Assembly (NCBI RefSeq): GCF_032362555.1
Contig: NC_083517.1
Coordinates: 1,880,001 to 1,944,000, forward strand
Length of the DNA stretch: 64,000 nucleotides
Source: Amyelois transitella
Lineage: Eukaryota; Arthropoda; Insecta; Lepidoptera; Pyralidae
Direction of reading: 5' to 3'
Positions 6,060-39,900 of this stretch are shown here, piece after piece. The position numbers were made by a program, and so were the translations under genes. Under the pieces are notes generated by a model. It ran no database searches, had not been told where the DNA came from, and saw only the letters and a program-made list of their open reading frames with translations. How positions within the stretch are numbered: the stretch's first letter is position 1; the number at the start of each line of letters is the position of its first letter.

Positions 6060-8110
6060 AAATTGAGTGCTGAAAAAAAAATTTAGGAAAAATGGAGTAT
6101 TGGAATCAGTGCTAAGAACTGGAGAAGTCAGATTGGAATCAACGCTATGATCTATTATCTGGAGGAAATACTGAAAACCGATGTATGTGAACGAATGCTG
6201 CGAACTTCAGAAAACAAGACTTACTAATGCCGCGAATTTAAGAAAACACGACGTATTGGAATCAAGGCTGTGAATTCGAGAAATCGTCATGTATTGTTAT
6301 TAATGCTACGAACTGATAGAGGTATTGGAGTCAATGCTGCGAACCTGAGGGTACACAACGTATTGGTATCAAGACTACGAATTCGAGAAAAATGATGTAT
6401 TGGAACTAATGCTGTAAACTGATAGAGGTCATATTGGAATCAATGCTGCGAACCTGAGGACATACAACGTATTGGTATCAAGACTACGAATTCGAGAAAA
6501 ATGATGTACTGGAACGTATGTTGTAAACTGATAGAAGTCATATTGGAATCAATGCTGCGAACCTGAGGACACATGACTTATTGGAATTAATGCTGCGATC
6601 TGATGGAGGTCATATTGGAATCAATGCTGCGAACCTGAGGACACATGACTTATTGGAATCAATGCTGCGAACCTGAGGACACATGACTTATTGGAATCAA
6701 TGCTGCGAACCTGAGGACACATGACTTATTGGAATTAATGCTGCGATCTGATGGAGGTCATATTGGAATCAATGCTGCGAACCTGAGGACACATGACTTA
6801 TTGGAATCAATGCTGCGAACCTGAGGACACATGACTTATTGGAATCAATGCTGCGAACCTGAGGACACATGACTTATTGGAATTAATGCTGCGATCTGAT
6901 GGAGGTCATATTGGAATCAATGCTGCGAACCTGAGGACACATGACTTATTGGAATTAATGCTGCGAACTGATGGAGGTCATATTGGAATCAATGCTGCGA
7001 ACCTGAGGACACATGACTTATTGGAATTAATGCTGCGATCTGATGGAGGTCATATTGGAATCAATGCTGCGAACCTGAGGACACATGACTTATTGGAATT
7101 AATGCTGCGAACTGATGGAGGTCATATTGGAATCAATGCTGCGAACCTGAGGACACATGACTTATTGAAATTAATGCTGCGAACTGATGGAGGTCATATT
7201 GGAATCAATGCTGCGAACCTGAGGACACATGACTTATTGGAATTAATGCTGCGAACTGATGGAGGTCATATTGGAATCAATGCTGCGAACCTGAGGACAC
7301 ATGACTTATTGGAATTAATGCTGCGATCTGATGGAGGTCATATTGGAATCAATGTTGCGAACCTGAGGACATACAACGTATTGGTATCAAGACTACGAAT
7401 TCGAGAAAAATATGTACTGGAAAGTATGTTGTAAACTGATAGAGGTCATATTGGAATCAATGCTGCGAACGTGAGGAAACATGATGTATTAGAATTAATG
7501 CTGCGAACTGATGGAGGTCATATTGGAATCAGTGCTGCGAACCTGAGGACACATGACTTATTGGAATTAATGCTGCGAACTGATAGAAGTCATATTGGAA
7601 TCAATGCTGCGAACCTGAGAAAACGCAACGTAGGTATGGAAATCAAAAGATTGAATCCGAGGAAACACGATATATTGGAATCAATGCAGCGAACTGATGG
7701 GAATTATATTGGAAGCAATGCTGCAAATCTGAGGAATCATGACGTATTGGAATCAAGACTGCGAATTCAAGAAAACATTATGTATTGGAATTAATGCTGC
7801 GAACTAATAGAGGTCATTTTATAATTAATGCTGCAAACCTGAGGACACACAACAAATTGGAATCAAGAGCATGAATTCGAGAAAACATGATGTACTAGAG
7901 TTAATACTGCGAACTGATGGATATCCTATTGGAACCTGAGGAAACACGGGCATTGGAGGCGAAAATGAGATCTGGAAAAATACGGTAAGAGAATATACGG
8001 ACGGCATTGAAACTAGGGCGGTGAACATGTGAAATAACATCGGAATCAATGCTACTAATTGGAGAAACACGACGCATAGGGTCCAATGCTGCAACTGGAA
8101 GTGCACATAC
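6060..8110. repeat. 72-bp tandem array with degenerate edges
   Basis: The unit is 72 bp made of two related halves: 38 bp (ATTGGAATCAATGCTGCGAA plus CCTGAGGACACATGACTT) and 34 bp (ATTGGAATTAATGCTGCGAT plus CTGATGGAGGTCAT). Between about 6540 and 7370 the units are nearly identical; towards 6060 and 8110 they decay progressively. In places (6620-6720, 6770-6870) only the 38-bp half is repeated. Because 72 is divisible by three, long reading frames cross the array on the plus strand (6877-7434, 7471-7794). I treat these as by-products, since no gene context or start signal supports them. Confidence 0.85.
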
Positions 8111-15900: not shown

Positions 15901-18900
15901 ATAATCTCTACATACATAATGGTAACAATACCTTATATATCTATCCTCCCATTTTGTTTATTATTATGTATTTATTAATATGATCACGGCTATCTATATC
16001 CCTTGGGATATATGTATGTACATAGTCAGCAGTCTTGTCAGACAGATGGCCACGTTCAGCTATAGTGTATAGGCTTAGTGATAGAATTGAGATTCAAATA
16101 GTGACAGGTTGTTAGCCCATCGCCTAAAAGAAGAATCCGAAGTTTATAAGCCTAACCCTTAGTCGCCTTTTACGACATCCGTGAAAAAAGGGATAGGAGT
16201 AGTCCTGTTCTTTTTTTTTGCAGGTCTGGTGCCGGGAACCACGCTGTAAATGTTTATTACCTGTGATATACCTATATAATGTCGTAAACGTGATCTTTTA
16301 TCGATTTCACACTTCGCATATTTTGTAATATCCTTTTGGATTCTTTAATCCACAGATAAGAACAGGTATTACTTATCAACACGTGTCACCGTTATCCTAT
16401 TGATAGTAACAATGTATTTAAAACTAGAGGCCGCCCGCGACTTCGTCCGCGTGGAATCAATTACGCGGGAGCATCGGAATAAAAAGTAGCCTTTATGTTA
16501 ATCTGGGTCTTATGCTATATCATATTTTAAGCCAAACAGCTGAACGTGGCCTTTCAGTCTTTACAAGACTGTTTGTTGGCTCCGTCTACCCCGCAAGTGA
16601 TATATGTAGACGTGATTATATGTATGTATGTAATCGTTCAAGAAAGATTGGTAACCTTAATAATTTCCTACATACATACATACATATGGTCACGTCTATG
16701 TCCCTTGCGGGGTAGACAGAGTCAACAGTCTTGAAAAGACTGAATGGCCACGTTCAGCTATTTGGCTTAACGATAGAATTGAGATTCAACTAGTGACAGG
16801 TTGCTAGCCCATCGCCTAAAAAGAATCCCAAGTTTGTAAGCCTATCCCTTAGTCGCCTTTTACGACATCCATGGGAAAGAGATGGAGTGATCCTATTCTT
16901 TTTTGTATTGGTGCCGGGAGCCACACGGCACGGCATTAATAATTTCCTATCCTTAACAATGTCGTTAAATACATTTCTAACAACCTTCGCAGTTCATCCG
17001 CCTTCAGTTGTGTATGCATGTCTGTCATACGCATTAAGGTTTGTCAATTCATTGCGTGACACCTACCTACCCAGTCACGTTGAATAATAAGCGTTCACAA
17101 AACTACCATGTTTTATTTACATCCGAGTACTTACATAACTTGTCGGTTTTTTATAAGTACGCTTCTTATTTTCTGAGGGTGCACTTAAAAATTGGTACGG
17201 GAGCAAAAGTTAAAGGTATTAATCATTTTACGCAGGCAGAGTCGCCTGCGCTCTCTATATATGTATATGTACATATGTATATCTTACTAATATTACCTAT
17301 AAATGCGAAAGTTTGCATGTCAGTAGGTATGGATGTTTGTTATTCTTTCACGCAAAAACTACTGAACCGATTACGATGAAATTTGGTATGTAGGTAGCTG
17401 AAGACCTAGAATAACATATATTTTTATATAAAATAACATATGATAAGGTTTTCATGCGGACGAAGTCGCGGGCGGCCGCTTGTATATACATATATATGGT
17501 CACGTCTATATCCATTGTGGCATAGACAGAGCAAATAGTCTTGAAAAGACTGATAGGCTACGTTCAGCTATTTGGCTTAATGATAGAATTGACATTCAAA
17601 TTCCCTGCGCTCTCTATTGTGACATACTTATAGGTAAACGTTGAAAATGCATGAAGAGAGTTATGAATATGGTTGAAGCGAAAGAAGTATGCAGGGATCG
17701 TGGCAAGTGTAAAACTAAAGTCACTATCTGCCTATCCCTCTAGAACAAGAGTTGAATGTACTAACGTTAATGTATGTAGTGGATACAAGTATCGTTCAAC
17801 CAACATATTGAAGTTTGGCCTTTTGATGAGTAATACCACTGCGATAGTGAGAACAAAGGCAGATTTACACATTATTCAACGTTATATGTTAACTGTATGT
17901 GACTTATGATTGATAATTTATGTGATAACAATTGATATTTTGTAATTATTAATTTGAGCGCCGTGTGGTTCCGCGACTCTAGAATAGACCACTCCGTAAC
18001 TTTTTCATAGATGTCGTTGAAAGCGTCTAAGGGATGGGCTTATGGGCTAGCAATCTGTCACTATTTGAATCTCAATTCCATCATGAAGCCATGCAGCTGA
18101 ACGTGGTCTTTTAGAGACTGATGGCTCTGCCTACACCTCAATGGATATAGACGTGACTATATCTATGTATGGCATTAGAAATTATGGCAGTTTAACTGCA
18201 TGGTTATTCATCTTATGTCCTCTAAATTTATGTAAGGAAATTGTGACTGACTCGTCTATACAATTATTTAAAACTTATAGGTCGATAAAGTTGCTAAGGG
18301 CGATTTTGAGTCATATAAGGGCATTATAGTAAATATAAAAAATGAGTTGACAAACTTTTAAGTTTGGCCACCTTAGGCTTAAATTACACTGAAATAGATA
18401 AGGTAGAACGGCGTCTACAAGTATGAATGACATAATTTTATGTATTTTTTTATCGATATATAAGGTAGAACGGCGTCTACAAGTATGAATGACATTTTTT
18501 TTTATCGATATAAATAAAATGAATTTTGATGACCACAATCTTGGATTGGGTAAGTTGGTGTTTTACACAAAGCGACTCCCGTCTGACCATCGCTGCCTTT
18601 GCAGGAAAACTTAGCCTTAGGTATATTGGACCATTCCGAATATGCAGCCCAAGTAACAAATTTTAGTACTTCTAAGAGCGTTTTGGAACGTGCCAAACGT
18701 AACTCAGAAAACAGTTCTACCTGTGATAGTATTTTAACATGAGCCACGCTATATATACCTAAGACGTATGATATAATACTAATGCCTTTTAATTTTCCAC
18801 AGATGTGAAGACAATTCTGAAGTCAGTCTCCGGGCGCCTGCGCTCCGGCGAGCTGACCGCCATCATGGGACCCTCGGGCGCTGGTAAATCCACGCTGCTC

Positions 18901-30900: not shown

Positions 30901-33900
30901 GCAAAGGCACCTTGAGGCATATAAAATTTGACTGATTTTGAAATTAAAATCTCTCAAAAGTAGACAGCGCGTGTGCAATACATTCGTATGCCCAAGAAAC
31001 CCGAAACGACTGGTAGGCAGACGACCTCGCCCTTGACGCTATACAAAAAATAACAACTTTGACATTAGATATATATTTTTTTTTTGTGTCGAAATAAATT
31101 TTTAATTTTGGCTTCCACATAATTGTTTTGTGAATAAGTTTCAATAAAATTATGTATCAGAAAATATGAATAAGTATTATTGATAAAAGTTTGCGACTGA
31201 AAACCTTCTGTTATTAAAATAAACGTTAAATTGTGAAGATCTACATTTCAGAAACAGACCCAAAACTTATCGACTTAGAGAGGGTATAAATAAAAATGAG
31301 AGAGACATTTAAGAACAATTTTTATCTAATGCTTAAACTATGCATTAACTTAACTACAACTTACATACATAGGTATCATCTCGTCTATATCCTTTGCGGG
31401 GTAGACAGAGCCAACAGTCTCGAAGAAACTGATAGGCCACGTTCAGCTATTTGGCTTGATGATAGAATTTAGATTCAGATAGTGACAGGTTGCTAACCCA
31501 TCGCCTAAAAAAAGAATCTCAAGTTTGTATGTCTATCCCTTAGTTAGCTAGCCCATCGTCTAAAAGAAGAATCTAAAGTTTATAAGCCTTAGTCGCCTTT
31601 TGCGACATCCATGGGAAAGAGATGGGGCAGTCCTATAGTTTTTCTATCGGTGCCGGGAATCACACGGCATTTACTAACCATATACAATTTCTCTTTCAAC
31701 CAGGACCTCGGGAATGGAAGGCAGCATAACCGTGAACGGCATGGAGAGGAACCTATCCAGTTTCCGCAAGCTGTCCTGCTACATCATGCAGGACAACCAG
31801 CTTCACGGGAACCTCACGGTGGAGGAAGCTATGAGCGTGGCCACGGCGCTCAAGCTGCCCACGGCCAGTGGACGAGCTCATAAGGAAGAAGTGGTATACA
31901 TACATACATACATACATATAATCACGTCTATATCCCTTGCGGGATGGACAGAGCCGACAGTCTTGAAAAAGACTGATGGGCAACGTTCAGCTATTTGGCT
32001 TTAAGATAGAATTGAGATTCAAATAGAGACAGGTTGTTAGCCCATCGCCTAAAAAAGAATCCCAAATTTGTAAGCCTATCCCTTAGTCGGCTTTTACGAC
32101 GGGAAAAAGATGGAGTGGTCCTATTCTTTTTTGTATTGGTGTCGGGAACCACACGGCACTGCAAAAAATGGTATGTATAGAGAAACTAGCTTCTGAATAA
32201 TGTCGTGAGGAGTTTTGTTCATCATAAACATACATTTATTTTTAAAACATATGTTATAAATGGATTTATTGAATATCTTGATAAGTTTCATATTCTTGTA
32301 AAGATAATAAAACTTAAGCGTGTTTGCTTAAGAGGAAAAAAAAAGGTTTAATTGCAGCCATTTTCCTACTTCCTGAATTCTCAATTCTTATGTTAGATTC
32401 CTACATTTTTACTTTATTTACTACTAGCCAGCGCCCGTTGCTTTATGTGACTTTACAACAAACTAACTAGGTCTAATCTAAACTATATCTAGACTGAAAT
32501 ATAAAATATGAAACATTCTTAGACATTAAGTATATTTTGCTTGAAAACTGAATTGATTTATACAAACATATTAACACGTTTGTCTGTTTTAGTTAAGTTT
32601 GAAACTAAATGAGTTAAAGAGACCTTTATACTTATCGCTAATCTTCTTAAAAAGCTACTAAGCACTTTTAAATTTCATCTATAAACTCAAAATGTGTTTT
32701 CGCCAAATTGCAACAAGTATTAAGATTCATAAATGGGCACAGTTTAAGGTCTATTTTGGTCCCAACTGACCATGTTGACCCCGATTGGCCAGGGTCGGCG
32801 CGCGGTCGCCGAACGAACAACATATTTTCATTTCATATATATATATATAATAAATCTTCGATATAGTCACGCCTTATATAACTCGAGAAGTTTGACGAAT
32901 GCTTATTTACATGTAAATTAATTTGCATGCCGTCTCTAAAGTTTCCTTATGTTTTGAAGCATCTTATAGTGAATTTAGAAAATGCTATCTTCATTAATAG
33001 ATTAAAACGCTTTATATCTGAGAAAGATGTAGCAAAAGGAATTAAATGTAAATTGACAAATTAATTATTTTATTTATCAATAATACAGGTAAAATAAATA
33101 CCGTGATAAAATAAAGTTACGTTACGTACGCGTTTTATACCTGTAGTATTTATAAATAGTATAATGCAACGCGATGTTTTATAACCAGTTATGACAAATT
33201 CATTCTTCTAAAGAAAATTTTCTTTACACTCCTTTACTTCATATGTATTTATTTTTTGTTCATATTAAACAAACCAGTTCTTGTCAGAGATTTAGTAATC
33301 CGTTTTTTTAAATAAAATATTGATTGACATAAAATAAAAATATTTTTTTTTCAAAAATAATAAAAATATCATAAAAAAATAAATAATTACGCATTAGCGT
33401 CATATTTAAAAAAAAAAACAAAGCTTGTCTCGCATGCGGTCCTCTTCTTCAGAACGATGTTACACAGTCGAAAAAAAAATGTAAATTATTCTCATTTAAT
33501 TTCAGATACAAGAAATCCTCGAGACGCTTGGCCTATCAGAACACCACAAGACCATGACATCGAACCTCTCCGGGGGGCAGAAGAAGCGTCTCTCCATAGC
33601 CCTGGAGCTCGTCAACAACCCGCCCATCATGTTCTTCGACGAACCCACATCGGGGCTGGACAGCTCCTCGTGTTTTCAATGTATATCATTGCTGAAAACC
33701 TTGGCGAGCGGGGGAAGGACCATAATATGTACTATACACCAACCGTCCGCTAGATTGTTCGAGATGTTTGATCATTTGTACACGTTGGCGGATGGACAGT
33801 GTGTGTATCAAGGCAGCACTGGACGATTGGGTGAGTTTATATGAACAAAAACATAAAATCACGTGTATATCCCATGCGGTGTAGAGCCAACAGTCTTGTA

Positions 33901-36900
33901 AAAAAGAGGCCACGTTCAGCTGTTTGGCTTAATGATAGAATCGAGATTCAAATAGTGACAGGTTGCTAGCCCATCGCCTAAAGGAAGAGTCCCAAGTTTA
34001 TAAGCCTATCCCTTAGTCGCTTTTTACGACATCCATGGGAACGAGTAGAGTGGTCCTATTCATTTTTTTTATTGGTGCCGTTAACCACACGGCCATTTAT
34101 ACACGGTAACATTATTTAGTTTAGACGTATTGTTAGGTTATTATGACGTAGGCATATTATTTTCTTTAAATTCCAACACTACAGGGACTCCATATTAAAA
34201 AATAATTTATCTCGTAAAACATATCCGTAGATGATGATTTAACTATAACAGCGTAAGTTACAGTCGGGGCATGCTATTATGCAACCGGCCTGATGTTTTG
34301 GTTGCGTAAACTGCATGGATGCGTTATTGCGATACATCCGCAAGACGATTGTGTATAATAGTATCGATGTGCTGATTGATTCATATTATACTTCTTGTTG
34401 GCAATCGACCCTGCATGCTCTTGTTGTTCTTTGAAGGCAAACTTTTTGGTATACGCCGTAGCAACCGTTGCCATGATGTTTTTGGTTAGAGAGATGTCAA
34501 AAATAATTATGATATAGATATGTTTGTTTTACTTTGAATAATAAAGACATTTTAAACTGATTATTTTCTCTCTTTCCCCCTTCTATCTTCTGTAGGAACT
34601 TAATAACTATACTTACTAACCTACATTCTTAAATATTGTTGGACAATTGGCCATGTCGATGTATTGATTTAGGTACTTATCTGACGTTTAAAAGATTTTT
34701 TGTAGACAAAATCCACAATATGAATAAAGTAATAATAATAGATATGAATGATCAACTTTGGTCTGAGTAAAATTCTTAACATGTAAATTCGCCAAATTTA
34801 CTATATATGTATTGTTTGTTATATGTAATGTTAAAATTGGCTAGTTCTATTGTCTTGGACCAAAATCTTTAATCTATACTAACATTATAAAGCTGAAGAG
34901 TTTGTTTGTTTGTTTGAACGCGCTAATCTCAGGAACTAGTGGTTCGGCTTTAAAGAATTATTTTTGTGTTGAATAGACCAATTATCGAGGAAGGCTTTAG
35001 GCTAATTAACATCACGCTGCAACTACTACTATTAGGAGCGAAGAAATAGTGGTGAATGTGAAAAAAAATCGAGGAAAATTATTCATCCTTAAGGGCTTCA
35101 ATGAGGACCAAAATAACTATTCCAAACGGACGAGGTCGCGGGCACAGCTAGTATTAGAATAAGCTTTGAATAAATAAATAAACAATATTTTATCTATGTA
35201 AACAAATATTTTATCTGTTGGAATTATCCCCGCATCTCTCGTCCACGATATATACAAATTTGAAAAAAAAAAAAAGACATTTTTTCAATAATATTTTTTT
35301 AATGTTTTAATTACTTTTTTTTCCAGTGGAATGGCTTGGCAGTCTCAATCTGCCTTGTCCATCATACCACAACCCGGCTTCCTTCATCATCGAGGTATCT
35401 TGCGGGGAGTACGGTGACAACACAGGGAAACTGGTTCGAGCCATTGACAATGGGAAGAATGACATCAGGTAAGATGATTATTTTGGTTTTGTTGGAAATA
35501 TGTCAGGTACAAGGGTACGCTGAACCGGCGAGCTTGCATGAGATATGAATGTCGATAAAGATGACAAAATGATAATAATTAGACAGAGCTTATATACGCT
35601 GCTTATTTAAAATATATGTACATAATTCCGACGCCTTCAAAGGTAGAATGTGTGTTAACAGAAATTGTGCTTGAATACTTGAGACCTTTGTATATTGTGA
35701 ACTTCAATATTCAAGGAATAAATAAATGATTAAAGCGAAATTAGTTAGCAGGGATCGTGGCAAGTGAAATGTAATCTTTGCCTTCATTTTGTCCCGTATT
35801 CTGTTTATTTATTATTATTTAAAAAAAAAAATTACATTAAATCAACAAGTATTATTTTGCAAAACTGCAGGGTAGTTAAACGGCAAACCGTATATTTATT
35901 TGTTTTATGGAATTTCATGCGAAAGGCATAATTTTTTTTTGATATAAATTACTAATAATTTATTAATTAAATCCCTTGAATTTATTTTCAGAAACGGCCT
36001 TCCTTTCCCAGAAAACAATTACAATAACAAAAAAGACATGGACGCCTCGCTGCCAGAACGGAACAAGAACGATCTCTCGCAAGTGCAGGAGAAATTTAGC
36101 AACCTCCAGAACGGTATAATGCAGTATGCCGCCAGCGAGGTCGCTAAGGGAAAAGGTAAGTTTATAAATAAAAAATAAATAATAAATAAAATAAAATATG
36201 TTTATTTCAGACACAGTCCAGAGTTGTTAGTAAATCTTATGTACTAATGTTAGTAATAATTAACATACATACATACATATAATCACGTGTATATCCCTTG
36301 CGGGGTAGACAGAGCCAACAGTCTTGAAAAGACTGATAGGCCACGTTCAGCTATTTGGCTTTAAGATAGAATTGAGAGTACCTAAGTTTATAACTATGCA
36401 AAATATAATTTTCGCATTCGGAACATTATTATGGATATTTATACATACATACATATGGTCACGTCTATATCCCTTGCGGGGTAGACAGAGCCAACAGTCT
36501 TGAAAAGACTGATAGGGCCACGTTCAGCTATATGGCTTTAAGATAGAATTGAGAGTAAGTTTATAACTATGCAAAATATAATTTTCGCATTCGGAACATT
36601 ATTATGGATATTTATACAAACATACATATGGTCACGTCTATATCCCTTGCGGGGTAGACAGAGCTAACAGAATTAAAAAGACTGATAGGCCACATTCAGC
36701 TATTTGGCTTTAAGATAGAATTGAGAGTACCTAAGTTTATAACTATGCAAAATATAATTTTCGCATTCGGAACATTATTATGGATATTTATACAAACATA
36801 CATATGGTCACGTCTAGGTATATCCCTTGCGGGGTAGACAGAGCTAACAGAATTAAAAAGACTGATAGTCCACATTCAGCTATTTGGCTTTAAGATAGAA

Positions 36901-39900
36901 TTGAGAGTACCTAAGTTTATAACTATGCAAAATGTAATTTTCGCATTCGGAACATTATTATGGATATTTATACATACATACATATGGTCACGTCTATGTC
37001 CCTAGCGGGGTAGACAGAGCCAACAGTCTTGAAAAGACTGATATACCACGTTCAGCTTAATGATGGCTTAATGAAAGAATTGTTATTCAAATAGTGACAG
37101 GTTGCTAGCCGATCGCCTAAAAAAATAATCCCAAGTTTGTAAGCCTACCCCTTAGTCGCCTTTTATGACATCCATGGGAAAGAGATGGAGTGGTACTACT
37201 CATTTTTGTATTGATGCCGGGAACCACACGGCACCAATATTATTAATAAATAGTTTAAAATTTTGCGCCAAATGTAAAATTAACCGCTTTACGAGTAATT
37301 ACGATGGTAATCACGTGATTACAGAGCAAAGGTCGCTTTAGCTTCCTGTTAGCAGTCGCGTTTACAAAGTAATTGCTGGGAATATTGTAAGGAAATGATT
37401 GATGAAACGATTACAGATCTAGTTGTAAATAGATTATTTAGAATACGGTGTAATCTATAGATATACCTACTAACATTATAAACCACAGCATCGCCCGTGC
37501 GAATTTAACGCCATATCTACATTAAAACGATCAATTTAACGCCACTTACAAAATGGCGTGTGGTTCCTGGCGCTTCAGAATCGCGCCACTCCATATCTTT
37601 CCTATGGATGTCGTAAAAGGCGACTAAGGGTATGGCTAATTCACTTGGGATTCTTCTTTTAGGCGTTGGGCTAGCAAACTGGCAATATTTGAATCTCAAT
37701 TCCATAATTAAGCCATACAGCTGAACGTGGACTTTCATTCTTTTCTAGACTGCTGGCTCTATCTATTCCGTTAGAAATAAAGACGTTACATGTATTTATT
37801 CCAGGCGAGCCGCTAGTTCAGTTAGCACCTCTCTGAATTTGAGTCTCAATTCCATAATTAGCCCATACAGCTTAACGTGACCTCGCAGCCTTTTCAAAGA
37901 CTACTGGCTCAGTCTACCTCGTAAGAGACAAAGACGTTACATGTATTTATTCCAGGCGAGCGGCTCGTTGGGTTGACAACCTCTCTCTATTTGAATCTCA
38001 ATTCCATCATTAACCCATACAGCTTAACCCTTAAATTGGCAATCATTTCGCGACGTTTTACACAGGTATTTTCTTAAAAGGAGACTTATTAGGGTTCAAT
38101 TAATAAAACAATAAAAAAATTGTAAAAAAAAATATATATATTTTCATAATTTTTTCAGGTGTCACATATATGTAAGTGACATCACCAACTAATCTACAAA
38201 CTTAACAAAGAATCTACAATCTTATCCATCATACACGTCACATAGAACGTACATTGCCAGTTTAGTAGTTAACGTGACCTCGCAACCTTTTGCAAAGACT
38301 ACTGGCTCAGTCTACCTCGTAAGGGACAAAGACGTTACATTTATTTGTTCCAGGCGAGCCGATAGTTCAGTTAGCACCTCTCTCTATTTGAATCTCAATT
38401 CCATCATTAACCCTTACAGTTTAACGTGACCTCGCAGCCTTTTCAAAGACTACTGGCTCAGTCTACCTCGTAAGGGATAAAGACGTTACATGTATTTATT
38501 CCAGGCGAGCCGCTCGTTGGGTAAACAACCTATCTCTATTTGAATCTCAATTCCATCATTAACCTTTACAGCTTAACGTGACCTCGCAGCCTTTTCAAAG
38601 ACTACTGGCTCAGTCTACCTCGTAAGGGATAAAGACGTTACATGTATTTATTCCAGGCGAGCGGCTCTTTGGGTTAATAACCTATCTCTATTTGAATCTC
38701 AATTCCATCATTAACCTATACAGCTTACCGTGACCTCGCAACCTTTTGCAAAAACTACTGGCTCAGTCTACCTCGTAAGGGACAAAGACGTTACATGTAT
38801 TTATTCCAGGCGAGCCGCTTGTTCAGTTAGCATATCTCTCTATTTGAATCTCAATTCCATCATTAACCCATACAGCTTAACGCGACCTCGCAACCTTTTG
38901 CAAAGACTACTGGCTCAGTCTACCTCGTAAGGGACAAAGACGTTACATGTATTCATGCCAGGCGAGCCGCTAGTTCAGTTAGCACCTCTCTCTATTTGAA
39001 TCTCAATTCCATCATTAACTCACACAGCTTAACGTGACCTCGCAGCCTTTTCAAAGACTACTGGCTCAGTCTACCTCGTAAGGGACAAAGACGTTACATG
39101 TATTCATGCCAGGCGAGCCGCTAGTTCAGTCAGCACCTCTCTCTATTTGAATCTCAGTAAGCTCGCAACCTATTGCAAAGAGTAGGCTCAGTCTACCTCG
39201 TAAGGGACAAAGACGTTACATGTATTCGTTCCAGGCGAGCCGCTGGTGGTCCAAATGGAGTTGGAGAAGGCTGACAACGCGGAAGTAGCTCTTCTCGGGG
39301 AACAGAGTCCAAAACGATACGCCACGTCGGAGTTCAAGCAGTTCTGGGTCGTTCTGAAGAGGACGCTGCTGTTCAGCAGGAGGGACTGGGTAAGTGACTG
39401 ACTATATCACTAGATGCAAAAGAGTTATGAATGTGGATGAAGCGATGGAAGTATGCAGAGATCGTGGCAAGTGGAAAGAGGTAAAAAGGCGCGGGAAAGA
39501 GGCGTGGTTTTGTGTATGTATGTGTGTTATCACTAAATAGTTTAATTAATTATTAAATTAATTTTAAAGCGAAGTATGTATGTATGTAAACTTAGATCTT
39601 TAAAACTGGACGACGGGTTTTGATGCAGTTTTTCGCATAAATTTGATTCTGGTAATTTTTTTTTTAATAATGATGCCATTTTACAGATCAAAAGGCAAGA
39701 TCAAATAATCAAAGAGACCGCTCACATTAAAAGCATTGAGGATGCGTTACAATAACCAATAAATTACAAACGTTAATTAATGATAACGAACAAAATGATA
39801 CAAACTAATTTTTGTGATGCCGATGCCAAACAGTGCCGTGTGGTTCCCGGCACCAATACAAAAAAAGAATAGGACCACTCCATCTCTTTCCCATGGACGT

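Follow-up and report, generated by a model that had tools for sequence, protein, structure and literature searches.

Alternative 3' splice sites and tandem acceptors, as generally known, offer several candidate AGs to one donor. The same arrangement is found in the intron described here, except that the candidates are nine near-identical predicted acceptors, mostly ~150 nt apart. Other properties of the locus have counterparts in published systems, for which portions of the cited papers were used. The SINE-derived satellites (sSats) of scaled reptiles are head-to-tail arrays whose units, ~126-150 nt in a gecko, come from a portion of a tRNA-type SINE (PMC10702118). Introns can change through the tandem duplication of coding sequence containing a proto-splice site (PMC2891723), and exons Ab and 3 of U2AF1 are duplicated exons, with inverted repeats upstream, that are both used (PMC5224494). 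Described tRNA-derived SINEs of Lepidoptera, with many intronic copies, include SfSE1 (298 bp, ATGT tail) and PxSE1 (263 bp, GT tail; PMC8010984), as well as HaSE1 (386 bp; PMC3272025); the word "tandem" is absent from the main text of both PMC8010984 and PMC3272025.

The window analysed here is the whole stretch of 64,000 nucleotides from Amyelois transitella (contig NC_083517.1, positions 1,880,001 to 1,944,000 of the forward strand), and it carries an array of partial SINE copies within an intron of a transporter gene. As in the sSats (PMC10702118), the units are head to tail and derive from part of a SINE; in contrast to the sSats, the array is short, local and confined to a single intron, and every unit contains part of the host acceptor and of the exon. 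The tandem duplication of a splice-competent piece is shared with the system of PMC2891723, but a new intron position is described there, whereas here an intron/exon junction is multiplied within an existing intron. Duplicate acceptors with long inverted repeats nearby are shared with U2AF1 Ab/3 (PMC5224494), where whole exons were duplicated, while only ten exon bases were copied here. The SINE itself, at ~260 bp and with an ATGT-type tail, resembles SfSE1 and PxSE1 in length and SfSE1 in its tail (PMC8010984), a likeness based on length and tail alone, and it too has many copies in introns. Among the titles and abstract openings of one literature collection, the terms used returned no description of an intron array that multiplies a host 3' splice site. 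The array is a real and unusual structure that is most likely tolerated, with largely silent decoys; a regulatory role is possible but unsupported.

Host gene and exon context

The gene model covers the exons from 31704 on, and joining the exons from this point onward gives a partial, open product of 581 residues. Human ABCG1 is its best PDB match (E 7.8e-168), aligned over residues 2-217 and 302-580; the unaligned residues 218-301 form the linker between the nucleotide-binding domain (NBD) and the transmembrane domain (TMD). Both ABC_tran (PF00005) and ABC2_membrane (PF01061) score over the Pfam cut-off in the partial product, and the Walker A exon is located upstream, near 18868. The host gene is an ABCG1/ABCG4-type transporter with the NBD followed by the TMD, and is nearest to ABCG1. 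The names "exon 6" and "exon 7" follow the numbering of the initial annotation, and the features relevant here are as follows.

35992..36155, plus strand: exon 6, ending AAAG/GTAAGT, phase 1
39231..39234, plus strand: real acceptor CCAG of exon 7
39235..39389, plus strand: exon 7, 155 nt, donor TGG/GTAAGT

Exon 7 codes for the last part of the NBD-TMD linker and the residues leading up to the membrane domain, and its junction with exon 6 falls at residue 273, within the unaligned linker. The introns on either side of exon 7 measure 3079 and 720 nt. Position 36155, given initially as the exon 6 donor, is the last base of exon 6, the donor GT itself being at 36156-36157.

Organization of the acceptor array

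The sequence CCAGGCGAGC occurs nine times in the window, always on the plus strand, at 37801, 37952, 38350, 38501, 38653, 38806, 38958, 39109 and 39231. A sequence match and 100 shuffles confirm all nine positions listed in the initial annotation (eight decoys and the real site at 39231), since shuffled sequences gave a mean of 0.01 matches and never reached nine (0/100). The spacings between occurrences are 151, 398, 151, 152, 153, 152, 151 and 122. Tandem Repeats Finder and direct reading both describe a ~152-bp tandem array interrupted by an insert, in which eight head-to-tail units lie upstream of the real exon 7 acceptor; the spacing of 398 corresponds to one unit plus a 245-bp insert, and that of 122 to the last unit, which has internal deletions. 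The parts of the array are listed here (unit types A and B are described below).

37555..37800 (ends approximate), plus strand: founder SINE, near full length, unbroken at TTTTAGGCGTTGGGCTAGC, left edge of the array
37801..37951, plus strand: unit U1, type A, decoy acceptor CCAG/GCGAGC
37952..38349, plus strand: unit U2, type B, decoy acceptor, split by the 245-bp insert
38028..38272, no strand assigned: 245-bp insert, TTAA on each side, imperfect inverted ends
38350..38500, plus strand: unit U3, type A, decoy acceptor
38501..38652, plus strand: unit U4, type B, decoy acceptor; host tag at 38500-38514, SINE restarting at 38515
38653..38805, plus strand: unit U5, type B, decoy acceptor
38806..38957, plus strand: unit U6, type A, decoy acceptor
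38958..39108, plus strand: unit U7, type A, decoy acceptor, T to G at -5
39109..39230, plus strand: unit U8, type A, decoy acceptor, T to G at -5; deletions add an AG at 39156-39157

Judged by eye, the ends of the 245-bp insert resemble ATTGGCA/TGCCAGT. Its identification as a multi-copy miniature element is unsupported, as its one match in the 327-Mb genome is the insert itself.

An alignment of twenty SINE copies from the window yielded a majority sequence, against which each unit was read. Each unit consists of ~136 bp of the SINE 3' half and a host tag of 15-16 nt, (T)TCCAG/GCGAGCCGCT, after which SINE sequence begins again. The copied host piece thus comprises ~5-6 intronic and 10 exonic nt, and the similarity to the SINE stops ~5 nt short of exon 7. 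Over 16 nt, three of the eight units carry the exact sequence of the real junction, and the other five differ from it by one base. There are two types of unit, which differ in the bases after the tag; from U1 to U8 the types are A, B, A, B, B, A, A and A. In type B (n=3) the tag is followed by CGTTGGG (two units) or CTTTGGG, similar to the SINE's own CGTTGGG, and in type A (n=5) by AGTTCAG or TGTTCAG, after which SINE-like sequence restarts. From these sequences we infer that type B is probably closer to the founding junction than type A.

The source of the tag was examined in the genome (327 Mb in 33 contigs). All six exact matches to the tag pattern TTCCAGGCGAGCSGCT lie within the array or the exon; allowing at most one mismatch raises the genome count to 16, 9 of them here, compared with 13 for a reversed-pattern control. 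A junction query taken from a type B unit (38455-38560), with 40 of 201 candidate places scored, returned at least 47 matches, including seven of full length that are all within the array. Other local matches cover query positions 1-95, stopping at the deletion in the last unit, and 1-63, ending at the real exon. Two further matches (C14 and C24) span the query at 72% identity, and the former, which was read, is without the tag. The other 36 among the matches listed cover the SINE tail only (1) or the SINE body from query positions 60-71 (35), and because these cover tail or body alone, the ~15 nt between SINE tail and body are not SINE. These sequence matches identify the tag as host sequence, copied from the junction of intron 6 with exon 7. 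The alignment, together with the genome-wide tag and junction searches, bears out the earlier proposal that the junction was copied with SINE sequence into a head-to-tail array.

The alternative that the tag is a component of a SINE subfamily is ruled out by the pattern search and the junction query. Nor is the decoy decamer specially conserved: it is invariant in 8/8 units, yet so are 23 of 144 ten-column windows, and three other invariant blocks of the unit (24, 13 and 12 columns) exceed it in length.

SINE tandems elsewhere in the genome

In the genome, 65 places (29 forward and 36 reverse, with 0 for the control) have a SINE 3' half shortly after a SINE tail, and head-to-tail partial SINE copies are therefore ordinary in this genome. 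Restarts at TTCTTCTTTT or ATTCTTCTTT, the two commonest, make up 15 of the 65, in a search whose pattern restricted the restarts that could be detected. Thirty of the 65 loci were examined with Tandem Repeats Finder, and four have a repeat of at least 80 bp over the junction, with 1.9-2.0 copies. At one more locus (C11), where two matches lie 153 bp apart, BLAST resolves ~2.7 copies of the 3' half, and Tandem Repeats Finder gave no repeat there. Among the loci examined, eight units are long for the genome. The array has the properties of a SINE-derived tandem repeat, in that its unit is part of a SINE found elsewhere and its eight units are arranged head to tail. It does not qualify as a SINE-derived satellite, for which long arrays of one unit at many loci would be expected, being a short array in one gene intron with a tagged junction found at no other locus.

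Origin and age of the array

The starting state would have been a SINE directly upstream of exon 7 in the ABCG1-like gene. A single tandem duplication with one end inside the SINE, ahead of CGTTGGG, and the other in exon 7, just past its first ten bases GCGAGCCGCT, would have produced a unit made of the SINE 3' half, the acceptor and the exon start, and the SINE/tag junction of this proposed founding unit is visible in the type B units. Further unequal exchange would have led to eight units, which have since diverged, gained the 245-bp insert and lost pieces. One founding duplication followed by unequal expansion is favored because the left edge of the array is unbroken SINE and the right edge is the real exon, and this origin is well supported. 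Identity between units is 86.9-95.4% (divergence 4.6-13.1%; 28 pairs). Since no pair of units is more than 95.4% identical, the expansion is not recent, and the divergence argues against high copy-number variability now and suggests that the array has persisted for a long time. A recent or freely varying array is unsupported, given this divergence.

The order of events might instead have been reversed, with a tandem SINE array arising first and its last unit, cut by deletion, becoming the acceptor and the first ten bases of exon 7. Such an order would be compatible with the SINE's own acceptor-like TTTTAG/GC (2.23 in the matrix described below, where the real site has 2.30), and with the tag-free repeats of SINE tail and 3' half that are present elsewhere in the genome. 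However, it is quite improbable, as it does not account for the non-SINE tag, whose pattern has no exact match elsewhere in the genome. In a by-eye comparison, the nearest two paralogues (L020 and L021) had no recognisable linker counterpart. Tandem repeats are prone to mis-assembly and one assembly was analysed, but an assembly artefact is hardly credible for units that differ by 4.6-13.1%, one of which has a unique insert and another private deletions. A duplication running from the SINE into exon 7 is the preferred origin of the array.

Splice-site properties of the decoys

Over the final 20 intron bases, each decoy shares 18 with the real site, and the decoys are potential alternative 3' splice sites, having an AG after sequence like that of the true acceptor. 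An acceptor matrix was trained on the nine other acceptors of the gene, two of which score below zero when left out. Scores were 3.58 for five of the eight decoys, 1.68 for one and 0.56 for two, compared with 2.30 for the real site, which ranks 15th among the 189 AGs scored; as the matrix is tiny and places 2/9 of the gene's own acceptors below zero, all that follows is that the score does not set the real site apart. The real site and the decoys are also outscored by three further intronic AGs, at 37747-37748 (9.45, in the founder SINE), 39156-39157 (6.75) and 36209-36210 (6.04), and the matrix score is therefore no predictor of use. Splice-site strength is likewise rejected as a full account of acceptor choice, with five of the eight decoys outscoring the real site.

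At 37643-37663 and in other plus-strand SINE copies, an acceptor-like TTCTTCTTTTAG/GC is found in the SINE body (score 2.23), with which a copy on the plus strand might introduce a potential 3' splice site.

The reading phase, which most decoys were initially thought to keep, is in fact kept in all eight. The first in-frame stop follows, for the decoys in order, after 10, 40, 12, 6, 25, 12, 12 and 12 codons; translation agrees with the earlier description of the decoy at 37801 (ten whole codons, then TGA). An early stop of the kind seen in splicing-coupled decay switches (poison-exon type) is thus reached from 8/8 decoys. Transcripts using a decoy would have several exon junctions downstream, and their degradation would generally be expected. 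The truncated NBD that the initial annotation predicted from decoy use is contradicted by the alignment: because junction residue 273 lies past the aligned residues 2-217, the ABCG1-aligned NBD stretch is retained, and the predicted product would consist of the NBD and part of the linker.

Opposite SINE array and choice of acceptor

The nine acceptors differ in the sequence that follows them. Exon length is 155 nt from the real site versus 277-1585 nt from the decoys, the GC content of the following 100 nt is 0.57 versus 0.41-0.49, and the same 100 nt contain four purine-rich hexamers after the real site, none after seven decoys and two after one decoy. The real site alone adjoins exon-like sequence. 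In exon-defined exons, the site closest across the exon is preferred (PMC9225289; human data, with minigene tests on competing 5' sites), and an upstream 3' site is preferred when pairing occurs across the intron (Reed and Maniatis, per PMC9225289). The long introns flanking exon 7 suggest exon definition, which would favor the real site; intron-wise pairing, if at work here, would let the decoys win. The spliceosome most likely still chooses the last site, because it alone adjoins the real exon 7 and forms a short exon with that exon's donor. The decoys would give rise at most to low-level, early-stop transcripts that would then be removed, and most probably the array is tolerated as a passenger and does not act as a regulator. 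The locus is probably best explained, then, as a tolerated SINE-driven duplication that created potential, mostly silent decoy acceptors and left the last site in use.

A second SINE array in intron 6 lies in the opposite orientation and may assist in the choice of the real site by fold-back.

36265..37057, minus strand: array 1, 4.5 copies of a 176-bp unit, running into a full minus-strand SINE to 37234

The unit of array 1 consists of the minus-orientation SINE tail half and ~70 bp of other sequence, and its units are 94-98% identical (6 pairs); by unit identity, array 1 looks younger than the acceptor array. The two opposite arrays might form a long hairpin, masking the decoys or looping them out while the real acceptor stays exposed. 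The minimum-energy fold of 36100-39460 contains 520 cross pairs, compared with 30-86 when array 1 is shuffled (5 shuffles), 506 pairs are expected between the arrays, and the founder SINE and seven of the eight units (U1 and U3-U8) pair with array 1 better than 20/20 self-shuffles. The real AG is unpaired at 0.94 in the whole stretch and 0.79 locally, and less open values were obtained for six decoy AGs in the whole fold (0.10-0.50) and seven in the local fold (0.08-0.49). However, the decoys at 38350 and 38653 are equally open in the whole fold (0.93 and 0.95), the latter also locally (0.78), and the acceptor stretches at 38806, 38958 and 39109 are unpaired with array 1 in the whole fold (0.0). 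Measured over 8 nt, the openness of the real site (0.002) offers no advantage over that of the decoys (0.001-0.02), folding over 3.4 kb is unreliable, and array 1 is apparently younger than the array that it would mask. Masking of the decoys in this manner is rather unlikely, and the folding model presents fold-back as a possible aid to the choice of the real site.

A regulatory reading would have the decoys compete with the real acceptor, so that the number of units sets the productive fraction of ABCG mRNA. The close resemblance of the decoys to the real site (18/20 intron bases each), the early stops reached from all eight, and the preference for upstream 3' sites under classical intron-centered proximity (Reed and Maniatis, per PMC9225289) would all accord with such competition. 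It is nonetheless rated unlikely, as the long flanking introns suggest exon definition and the decoys lack exon-like sequence, the AGs at 36209-36210, 37747-37748 and 39156-39157 outscore the real site and the decoys alike, and all pairs of units are at most 95.4% identical. It is likewise doubtful that the eight stop-leading copies and the foldable opposite SINE array act together as a tunable attenuator of splicing that sets the level of the full-length ABCG1-like transporter; if this were true, transporter output would respond to a stronger or weaker hairpin and to the gain or loss of units. Passive tolerance of the array, with splicing to the last acceptor, is preferred over these readings.

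Implications and other repeats in the window

The choice of an acceptor among several is usually studied in constructs, and this locus provides a natural test with nine near-identical sites. The nine acceptors share one intron and differ mainly in the following sequence and in their distance from the donor, and the locus can pit exon context against upstream position in acceptor choice. The locus also illustrates how a SINE next to an exon can lead to extra copies of a host splice junction.

Additional repeats were observed near exons of the same gene and elsewhere in the window. Between 31379 and 41567, a SINE lies within 60 nt of the acceptor in 5 of 10 introns or upstream stretches, where random placement expects 1.4 (P 0.0036), in a post hoc test of one gene that counts the acceptor array among the five; for the donors of this gene, a SINE is nearby in 2 of 10 versus 1.4 expected (P 0.43). 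An exon ending at 31893 has an odd donor, GTG/GTATAC, which directly joins the ATAC tail of a minus-strand SINE (31893-31912). At 6323-7934, Tandem Repeats Finder reports a tandem repeat whose nested periods are 38, 72 and 110 bp, with up to ~40 copies of the 38-bp unit.
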